Shown: one piece after another, positions 14,624-58,393 of the stretch
Position numbering within the stretch: position 1 is the stretch's first letter
How the letters are laid out: each line of letters starts with the position of its first letter
Assembly: GCA_005888315.1 (NCBI GenBank)
Contig: VAWH01000018.1
Span: 124,001-188,000, forward strand
Source of the DNA: Actinomycetota bacterium
GTDB taxonomy: Bacteria; Actinomycetota; Thermoleophilia; Gaiellales; Gaiellaceae
Reading direction: 5' to 3'
DNA: 64,000 nt
Made by a program: the position numbers and the translations under genes
Notes under the pieces: generated by a model
Database searches by the model: none
The model's input: the letters and a program-made list of their open reading frames with translations, nothing else
What the model was told of the DNA's origin: nothing

Positions 14624-14630
14624 GATCATA
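14624..14630. promoter_or_regulatory. Shared bidirectional -10 element between the acetyltransferase gene and tlyA
   Basis: GATCATA reads TATGAT on the minus strand, seven bases before GTG 14617, and GATCAT on the plus strand, six bases before GTG 14636. The plus-strand box lacks the first T of TANNNT, so this is the weakest of five such sites. Both transcripts would be leaderless or nearly so. Confidence 0.5.
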
Positions 14631-28365: not shown

Positions 28366-28497
28366 TTACGAGCTGCCCTGCTCGGCGTCCTTCCGCTGCG
28401 GGCTGATCTTGACGACCAGCCACGTCACCCCGGCGGCGAGCGCGATCACACAAACGATGAACAGCACCAGGCCAAGCACTCCGAGGACGGTCGCCAT
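28366..28497 (-). CDS. Small single-pass membrane protein
   Basis: 43 residues: MATVLGVLGLVLFIVCVIAL leads a hydrophobic helix (about residues 4-30) and the tail ISPQRKDAEQGSS is charged and probably cytoplasmic. Supported as a real gene by a TATTCT -10 nine bases upstream that is shared with deoB on the other strand, and by the ideal membrane-helix composition. No function can be assigned; proteins of this size and shape are common in Actinobacteria. Its stop is TAA. Confidence 0.7.
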   Translation of the reverse strand: MATVLGVLGLVLFIVCVIALAAGVTWLVVKISPQRKDAEQGSS

Positions 28498-28505
28498 GAC
28501 CAACC

Positions 28506-28512
28506 TAGAATA
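28506..28512. promoter_or_regulatory. Shared symmetric -10 element (TAGAATA) between the small membrane gene and deoB
   Basis: Plus strand TAGAAT ends six bases before the deoB GTG (28518). Minus strand TATTCT ends nine bases before the ATG at 28497. The whole divergent gap is 20 bases, so both mRNAs must be leaderless or nearly so. One of five such sites in the window. Confidence 0.7.
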
Positions 28513-28517
28513 GCCGC

Positions 28518-29684
28518 GTGTCGCGTGCCTGCGTGATCGTGCTCGACGCCGTCGGCGCAGGAGCCCTGCCCGACGCGAACGACTATGGAGACCAAGGCTC
28601 CGACACGCTCGGAAACGTTGCGAAGGCGGTCGGCGGCCTCGACCTGCCGAATCTCGAGGCGCTTGGCCTCGGCAACGTCGAGCCGCTCGCAGGCTGCTCG
28701 CCCCAACCGGGCGCACCCGCGGTGGCCGGCCGGCTCGTCGAGCGGTCCAAGGGCAAGGACACCACCACCGGCCACTGGGAGCTGATGGGAGTCGTCACGC
28801 CGCAACCGATGCCGACCTATCCGCACGGGTTCCCCGACGACGTCATCGATCCGTTCATGCACCGGACCGGGCGCGGCGTGCTCGGCAACAAGGCGGCGTC
28901 GGGAACGGAGATCATCCAGGAGCTAGGCGAGGAGCATCAGCGCACCGGCAAGTGGATCGTCTACACGTCCGCGGATTCCGTCTTCCAGGTCGCCGCGCAC
29001 GAGGAGACGATTCCGCTGGAGGAGCTGTACGAGGCCTGTCGGACGGCGCGGGAGATCCTCACCGGCAAGCACGCCGTCGGCCGGGTGATCGCGAGGCCGT
29101 TCCTCGGCCAGCCTGGAAACTACGAGCGCACGCCGAACCGCCACGACTTCTCCCTCGAGCCCAAGCGTCCCAACTACCTGACGCTCGTCCGCGAGGCGGG
29201 GAACACGGTGCACGGGGTCGGAAAGATCTCCGACATCTTCGCGGGCCAGGACATCGACGAATCTCGGCCGACGAAGTCGAATGTCGAGGGAATCCAGCAG
29301 ACCGAAGCGCTGCTCCAGGAGCTCGACGCCGGCCTGATCTTCGTCAATCTGGTCGAGACGGACATGCTCTGGGGACACCGCAACGATCCGGTCAACTTCC
29401 ACCGCTGTCTTCAGGATTTCGATCGGCGCCTGCCCGACCTGCTGGAGGCGATGCGGCCGGGCGACCTGCTGATCCTGACCTCCGATCACGGCTGCGATCC
29501 GACGACGCCCTCGACCGATCATTCGCGGGAGCACGCGTTGCTGCTCGCGTACGTCGCAGGCAAGAACGCCGCCGGCCGCATCCACGAGGGGGAGTTCGCT
29601 GACGTCGGCGCGACGGTGAACGGCTGGCTGGGCGGCAAGGCGCCGGGCCGCGGAATTCCGGGCGAGTCGATCCTCGAGCCCTGA
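28518..29684 (+). CDS. deoB: Phosphopentomutase
   Basis: Interconverts (deoxy)ribose 1-phosphate and 5-phosphate in nucleoside salvage. 388 residues. Alkaline-phosphatase-superfamily metal sites are visible: VIVLDAVGAGALPDA (metal Asp), GKDTTTGHWELMG with the phosphorylated Thr, NLVETDMLWGHRNDP and LTSDHGCDPTTPSTDHSREHALLL. GTG start is positioned by the TAGAAT box six bases upstream. Followed after 19 bases by the pyrimidine phosphorylase, whose product is its substrate. Confidence 0.97.
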   Translation: MSRACVIVLDAVGAGALPDANDYGDQGSDTLGNVAKAVGGLDLPNLEALGLGNVEPLAGCSPQPGAPAVAGRLVERSKGKDTTTGHWELMGVVTPQPMPTYPHGFPDDVIDPFMHRTGRGVLGNKAASGTEIIQELGEEHQRTGKWIVYTSADSVFQVAAHEETIPLEELYEACRTAREILTGKHAVGRVIARPFLGQPGNYERTPNRHDFSLEPKRPNYLTLVREAGNTVHGVGKISDIFAGQDIDESRPTKSNVEGIQQTEALLQELDAGLIFVNLVETDMLWGHRNDPVNFHRCLQDFDRRLPDLLEAMRPGDLLILTSDHGCDPTTPSTDHSREHALLLAYVAGKNAAGRIHEGEFADVGATVNGWLGGKAPGRGIPGESILEP

Positions 29685-45750: not shown

Positions 45751-45757
45751 TAGCGTA
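45751..45757. promoter_or_regulatory. Shared symmetric -10 element (TAGCGTA) between the rhomboid gene and comB
   Basis: Plus strand TAGCGT ends nine bases before the comB GTG (45766); minus strand TACGCT ends seven to eight bases before the rhomboid ATG (45743). Divergent gap only 22 bases. Confidence 0.65.
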
Positions 45758-55840: not shown

Positions 55841-55847
55841 TACACTA
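55841..55847. promoter_or_regulatory. Shared symmetric -10 element (TACACTA) between two divergent genes
   Basis: Minus strand TAGTGT ends six bases before GTG 55835; plus strand TACACT ends nine bases before the in-frame CTG 55856 of the EEP phosphatase gene. The divergent gap is 20 bases. Confidence 0.65.
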
Positions 55848-55855
55848 GCCGCGCT

Positions 55856-56674
55856 CTGGCGCTGCTCATCCGCACCTGGAACGTGTTTCACGGCAACGCG
55901 GACCCGCCGGAGCGCGAGGCTTATCTCGAGCAGATCGTGCGTCTGGGGACCGGCGATCGCCCGGATGTCGTCTGCCTCCAGGAGGTGCCGGCCTGGGCGC
56001 TCTCCCACCTTGCCGGCTGGAGCGGGATGCAGGCTTTCGGCGACATAGCGCAGCGGCCACGGCTCGGTCCACTGCCGATTCCCGCCGAGCTCGGCCGCGT
56101 GGTCACCTCGGTTCACCACGGTCTACTTCGCTCGGCGGTCGCCGGCCAGGCGAACGCGATCCTATTCAGCCCTGAAGCGGAGATTCTCGGCCGGGACAGA
56201 CTCGTCCTGAACAACCGCGACTTCAGGAAGGCCCAGTCGCGGTGGCTCGGGCTCCCGCTCGTGGCGCGACTGGCGTGGGCCAAGGAGAGGCGGATCGTCC
56301 AGGCGGTCCGCGCTCGGCGCCCCGGCGAGGGGACAGTCCTCGTCGCGAACCTCCACGCAACGAGCTACCCGGCCGACCAGCGGCTCGCCGATGCCGAGCT
56401 GCTTCGCGCCGCCGTCTTCGCCGACGGGCTCGCGCAACCAGAGGACATCGTCGTCCTCGCCGGCGATTTCAACGTCCCGGCCGCCCGCTCGGCGACCCAG
56501 ACCGAGTTGACCGGCGAGGAATGGGGTTTTTCACCGCCGCTGGGGGACGGAATCGACCAGATCCTCGTCCGCGGCGTCGCCTTGGAGGCCCTGGAGCGCT
56601 GGCCGCGAGAGCGGCGGCGCCTCGCCGGCCGTGTTCTCTCGGACCACACACCGGTGGAGGCGCGGCTCCTTTGA
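55856..56674 (+). CDS. Endonuclease/exonuclease/phosphatase (EEP) family protein
   Basis: About 272 residues. EEP active-site set: Asn in LIRTWNVFHGN, Glu in VVCLQEV, His in VANLHATS, GDFNVP and SDHTPVEARLL. Substrate (DNA, phospholipid head group or phosphoinositide) unknown. The first canonical start is GTG 55883, which would remove the first strand and the conserved Asn of TWN. In-frame CTG codons at 55856 and 55862 lie just after a TACACT -10, so a CTG start is proposed. Its TGA overlaps the aminotransferase TTG. Confidence 0.82.
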   Translation: MALLIRTWNVFHGNADPPEREAYLEQIVRLGTGDRPDVVCLQEVPAWALSHLAGWSGMQAFGDIAQRPRLGPLPIPAELGRVVTSVHHGLLRSAVAGQANAILFSPEAEILGRDRLVLNNRDFRKAQSRWLGLPLVARLAWAKERRIVQAVRARRPGEGTVLVANLHATSYPADQRLADAELLRAAVFADGLAQPEDIVVLAGDFNVPAARSATQTELTGEEWGFSPPLGDGIDQILVRGVALEALERWPRERRRLAGRVLSDHTPVEARLL

Positions 56675-58386: not shown

Positions 58387-58393
58387 TACGATA
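58387..58393. promoter_or_regulatory. Shared symmetric -10 element (TACGATA) between the HD gene and murA
   Basis: Minus strand TATCGT ends eight bases before GTG 58379; plus strand TACGAT ends ten bases before ATG 58403. Gap 23 bases with these starts. Confidence 0.65.

Follow-up and report, generated by a model that had tools for sequence, protein, structure and literature searches.

Symmetric bidirectional promoters reportedly go back to a founding study by Warman et al. (2021, Nat Microbiol 6:746). They have a common -10 element with reciprocal -11A/-7T, are enriched between divergent genes and are said to occur in all prokaryotes; a distance of 18 bp between start sites is preferred, and 23 bp is likewise common, with 10 bp as a further class (PMC10268837, PMC12825309). 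At five such promoters of E. coli, transcription in the basal state was initiated too rarely for the two directions to compete (PMC12825309). In Actinobacteria and Deinococcus-Thermus, the start codon of leaderless genes is preceded at about 10 bp by the hexamer TANNNT (PMC3160421, PMC3898074, PMC12340547). Leaderless genes are not mentioned in PMC10268837, and a divergent or bidirectional arrangement had no match in the text of PMC12340547 or PMC3160421; PMC3898074 goes no further than remarking that divergent promoters in close juxtaposition are frequent in M. tuberculosis. Within the limited collection of literature that we searched, we found no bacterial description of a promoter both leaderless and bidirectional. 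Here we describe a 20-base gap between deoB and a divergent gene in a Gaiellaceae genome, in which the whole gap would, very probably, be a symmetric -10 bidirectional promoter of two leaderless genes.

The gap upstream of deoB and similar sites in the window

The window, by which we mean the whole 64,000-nucleotide stretch of DNA that was analysed, holds the following features at this locus.

28498..28517, no strand: whole divergent intergenic gap between deoB and the gene for a 43-aa membrane protein, 20 bases
28506..28512, no strand: symmetric -10 heptamer TAGAATA, read as TAGAAT for deoB (plus) and as TATTCT for the membrane protein gene (minus)
28518..29684, plus strand: deoB (phosphopentomutase, metalloenzyme superfamily), GTG start; Pfam PF01676, E 2.5e-28
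28366..28497, minus strand: 43-aa predicted membrane protein (from the translation), ATG start at 28497, predicted leader of 0-3 bases

The first-pass annotation had read TAGAATA as a box used in both directions, and its position within the 20-base gap was confirmed: 6 bases lie between the last T of TAGAAT (28511) and the GTG at 28518, placing this T at -7, and 9 bases lie between the last T of TATTCT (28507) and the ATG at 28497. The accompanying claim, that both genes would be leaderless or nearly leaderless when read from a shared symmetric -10, is supported by the sequence. A Pfam search with the 43-aa membrane protein (28366-28497, minus strand) gave no match.

We retrieved 80 orthologous deoB loci, the closest named relatives being metagenome genomes of Gaiellaceae and of other Thermoleophilia, Actinomycetota. 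By eye we counted about 71 of 79 relatives with the heptamer directly in front of deoB; a homologue of the 43-aa membrane protein adjoins deoB divergently in 69, and the partner start codon lies at the identical 20-base distance from the deoB start in 42. Among the 38 different gaps that are precisely 20 bases long, conservation is 84-95% in the columns of the box and 39-76% in the 8 bases that separate the box from the partner start. The GC that directly follows the heptamer on the deoB side (28513-28514) is almost invariant (92-100%) in the window and its relatives, and no -10 rule demands GC there.

Five sites of this design had been proposed in the window. Those at 28506, 45751, 58387 and 55841 (the latter with a putative CTG start) stood, but the one at 14624 proved to be one-way.

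45751..45757, no strand: symmetric -10 heptamer TAGCGTA, between a rhomboid gene (minus, ATG 45743) and a comB-like gene (plus, GTG 45766), gap of 22
58387..58393, no strand: symmetric -10 heptamer TACGATA, between an HD-domain gene (minus, GTG 58379) and a murA-like gene (plus, ATG 58403), gap of 23
55841..55847, no strand: symmetric -10 heptamer TACACTA, between a 103-aa ORF (minus, GTG 55835) and an Exo_endo_phos gene (plus)
14624..14630, minus strand: predicted one-way leaderless -10 (TATGATC, from GATCATA) of the GNAT gene only

Pfam domains were assigned to the rhomboid and comB-like 2-phosphosulfolactate phosphatase pair (PF01694, PF04029), to the HD-domain and murA-like pair (PF01966, PF00275) and to the Exo_endo_phos gene to the right of 55841 (PF03372). 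At the leaderless position of the latter gene ATG, GTG and TTG are absent; the gene would have to start at CTG 55856, possibly without a leader. The same gene seems to need CTG 55856 to take in its TWN motif (55841-55883). We rejected GATCATA at 14624-14630 as a box shared by the GNAT gene and tlyA: it is asymmetric, base 7 is C, and the plus-strand hexamer lacks the initial TA.

A density of five sites in 64 kb, as first suggested, was an overstatement for the genome, where 2.71 Mb contain 15 copies of the strict pattern (as compared to 2 for its backward control), a lower density than in the window. The window contains 7 TANNNTA where 6.35 are expected from dinucleotide shuffles, and 4 of the 7 sit in short divergent gaps; their number is therefore ordinary, and their placement is the unusual part.

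Leaderless starts and the placement of TANNNTA

The genome comprises 2.71 Mb in 117 contigs, of which 1.92 Mb (about 1.88 Mb of fetched stretches plus the window) were used for gene calling. Our home-made caller relied on codon bias only, using neither promoter nor ribosome-site information, and returned 1806 genes; the choice of start codons accordingly reflects codon bias, with uncertainty at many of the GTG starts. Across 1729 starts, the last T of TANNNT was found at -7, -8, -9 and -10 in 96, 67, 40 and 47 genes, respectively, as compared to about 4 at each other position. This register, with the last T some 7-10 bases before the start codon, was found genome-wide and suggests that leaderless starts with a TANNNT -10 are widespread in this genome, as already known for Actinobacteria (PMC3160421, PMC3898074).

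Among the 208 divergent pairs in the 1.92 Mb, 14 carry TANNNTA in leaderless register with both starts. None of the 208 carries the same-composition patterns ATNNNAT, TTNNNAA or AANNNTT in register with both starts, nor the other spacings TANNTA, TANNNNTA and TANNNNNTA; TANTA occurs so in one pair. Moreover, 12 of the 77 TANNNTA in the 1.92 Mb fall within divergent gaps shorter than 60 bp; such gaps account for 0.10% of the sequence. The placement of TANNNTA between divergent starts is not due to chance.

We extended the count to 73 genomes of the family, where the pattern was found 917 times, against 480 for the backward pattern and 83 for the same heptamer at a spacing of 13-16; the counting ignores gene calls and the genomes are related to one another, making p-values optimistic and indicative only. 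Since ATNNNAT is commoner than TANNNTA, the backward pattern serves poorly as a control at the level of the phylum, and we added a second one with the core unchanged but its spacing shifted; 72 of the 73 genomes exceed this second control. Lineage-wide use had been proposed at the outset, to be abandoned if related genomes lacked the heptamer enrichment, and the enrichment is there. Many other high-GC families of the phylum display a weaker excess (574 against 168 in 114 low-background genomes). In high-background families the excess is absent, or masked by chance matches, and in AT-rich actinobacteria chance matches swamp the pattern and render it uninformative. Judged from these comparisons, the symmetric box is a real, family-wide feature.

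Within coding sequence the same motifs are avoided. TANNNT reaches 0.28-0.31 of the synonymous-shuffle expectation, as compared to 0.59-0.60 for its same-phase control TANNNNNNT, and TANNNTA occurs 13 times as against 142 in synonymous shuffles (0.09), its own same-phase control giving 70 against 146 (0.48). The heptamer is therefore about five-fold rarer than its control and more depleted than TANNNT, on both strands. Rarity of TANNNT in all frames of mycobacterial (M. tuberculosis) coding sequence has been read as selection against spurious initiation (PMC10653884). The Gaiellaceae genome shares this depletion of the hexamer, and its symmetric heptamer is depleted further.

The seventh base and a second class of shared box

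In TANNNTA, T1, A2 and T6 are required by the forward promoter, whilst A7 is required by the reverse promoter only. Of 144 tandem leaderless promoters, 5 have A at base 7, where A is the rarest base and C the commonest; among 113 leaderless promoters of wide divergent gaps, 5 likewise have A. Where the gap has partner geometry in the same genome, A7 is present in 21 of 34 promoter readings; counted by distinct gap, this is 11 of 24 (Fisher p 1e-7). The remaining 13 of these 24 gaps have another base, so that box sharing would be common, not obligatory.

At three orthologous pairs, A7 was found in 111 of 119 promoters with the partner adjacent but in 3 of 12 without it (p 2e-7), partner presence being assigned by homology and the Fisher test treating relatives as independent. 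At comB, 21 of 26 relatives in which the rhomboid gene is adjacent keep A7, as do 23 of 24 loci of the HD/murA pair in which murA is the neighbour. Five comB loci (L273-276 and L279) have C at base 7, and there the pair apparently sits on two separate boxes. A base required solely by the reverse promoter thus appears to be maintained, and this test, together with conservation at orthologous pairs, would indicate selection for two-way use.

A second class of shared box had gone unnoticed in the first-pass annotation. The offset between opposite leaderless hexamers peaks at -1 (TANNNTA, 10 pairs) and at +4 (5 pairs), with other offsets in at most 2; with each start placed 12 bases after the first T, these peaks correspond to 18 and 23 bp between start sites, which are also the distances known from E. 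coli bidirectional promoters (PMC12825309). The +4 class is ANNNTANNNT, in which opposite -10 hexamers have one TA dinucleotide in common. It is present at five loci of the same genome (L004, L044, L087, L109, L114) and, with 1277 occurrences against 378 for its backward control in the 73 family genomes, is about as frequent as TANNNTA. Both classes may be favoured because they need only four fixed bases. At two deoB loci (L166 and L171), both types of box are present in TAGGATAGCTT: the partner has retained TAGGATA, and deoB, its start shifted by 5 bases, uses TAGCTT, an apparent switch from one class of box to the other.

Proposed mechanism, alternatives and relation to known promoters

Our data establish the sequence of the box, where it is placed, that it is enriched and that the base serving only the reverse promoter is conserved; two-way transcription, the exact starts, the sigma factor and any regulatory coupling are what we infer from them. 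RNA polymerase, presumably with the housekeeping sigma factor, would melt TANNNTA in either orientation because each of the key bases, -11A and -7T, pairs with the other's counterpart in the complementary strand. Translation of both genes would begin no more than about 3 bases from the transcription start, and leaderless starts on both sides would thereby shrink the start-to-start gap to the promoter itself, about 17-23 bases. The box would hold one polymerase at a time. Mutual exclusivity is inherent in polymerase binding, because the two complexes overlap, but its original extension to the two genes themselves is not supported, and the five E. coli promoters, with basal initiation too low for competition, speak against it at low activity (PMC12825309). 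Initiation in each direction would probably be infrequent enough for both genes to be expressed, and the two partners may well be expressed together.

One alternative would have the box serve one gene, A7 being present by chance or because the -10 consensus of the lineage is really TANNNTA. The 3 of 12 partner-less orthologous promoters that retain A7 would fit, yet we hold this to be very improbable: A is the rarest and C the commonest base at this position in tandem leaderless promoters, A7 tracks the presence of the partner, and C is found at base 7 where comB and the rhomboid gene apparently use two separate boxes. Nor do we give much credit to the idea that the short gaps are gene-calling artefacts, with true starts elsewhere behind ordinary leaders. 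Starts were indeed picked by codon bias, many GTG among them are uncertain and the 55841 site needs a CTG, but the TANNNT register emerges from calls that were blind to the promoter, and start, box and spacing are retained together in relatives; we consider such an artefact highly improbable.

A symmetric, conserved box between divergent genes is also what one would expect of a transcription factor site co-regulating both, and we judge this explanation extremely unlikely. Only T1, A2, T6 and A7 are constant between pairs, the middle being free (GAA, GCG, CGA, CAC); the half-site TANNNT occurs at hundreds of gene starts at a fixed distance from the start codon; and ANNNTANNNT places the same hexamer at another offset, which is unexpected for the site of a dimeric regulator. 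A further proposal accepts the bidirectional promoter and makes it a switch as well, in which activation one way shuts off the other and couples the genes in opposite senses. Steric exclusion is inherent in the overlap, and activated E. coli bidirectional promoters do repress the other direction, but basal activity was too low for competition at all five of those tested (PMC12825309). In addition, deoB with the 43-aa membrane protein gene, HD with murA and rhomboid with comB suggest no common logic of opposition, and a 20-base gap has no room for an activator site outside coding sequence. We regard a switch as unlikely.

Taken together, we think it probable that TANNNTA is a gene-packing device under selection in Gaiellaceae and, to a lesser degree, elsewhere among the high-GC Actinomycetota. 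It would make up the entire intergenic region of two leaderless genes, exist in two interconvertible forms (TANNNTA and ANNNTANNNT), be kept at the same pairs across genera and be purged elsewhere. Divergent pairs of leaderless genes offer a clean comparative test of whether selection maintains bacterial bidirectional promoters or a near-symmetric -10 consensus simply gives rise to them, as the base needed only in reverse is kept while the partner is present and mostly lost when it is absent. They also provide a simple route, from sequence alone, to true start codons and bidirectional promoters in uncultured high-GC bacteria. A gap of about 20 bases may come near the lower size limit for the region between two divergent genes.

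The most parsimonious reading is that the feature combines the symmetric bidirectional promoter described by Warman and Grainger with leaderless starts. As an element, the symmetric -10 is not new; its packing between leaderless genes in these soil bacteria, kept at the same pairs across the family, seems to be. As in known leaderless genes, the hexamer and its spacing occur in a high-GC lineage rich in leaderless genes. As in known symmetric bidirectional promoters, the Gaiellaceae boxes have reciprocal T/A pairs on both strands (TANNNTA), and their offset peaks match the 18 and 23 bp geometry. The two sets differ in that the known one was defined by mapped starts and the Gaiellaceae one by sequence, and in that both Gaiellaceae genes appear to be leaderless, with the promoter filling the whole gap between them.
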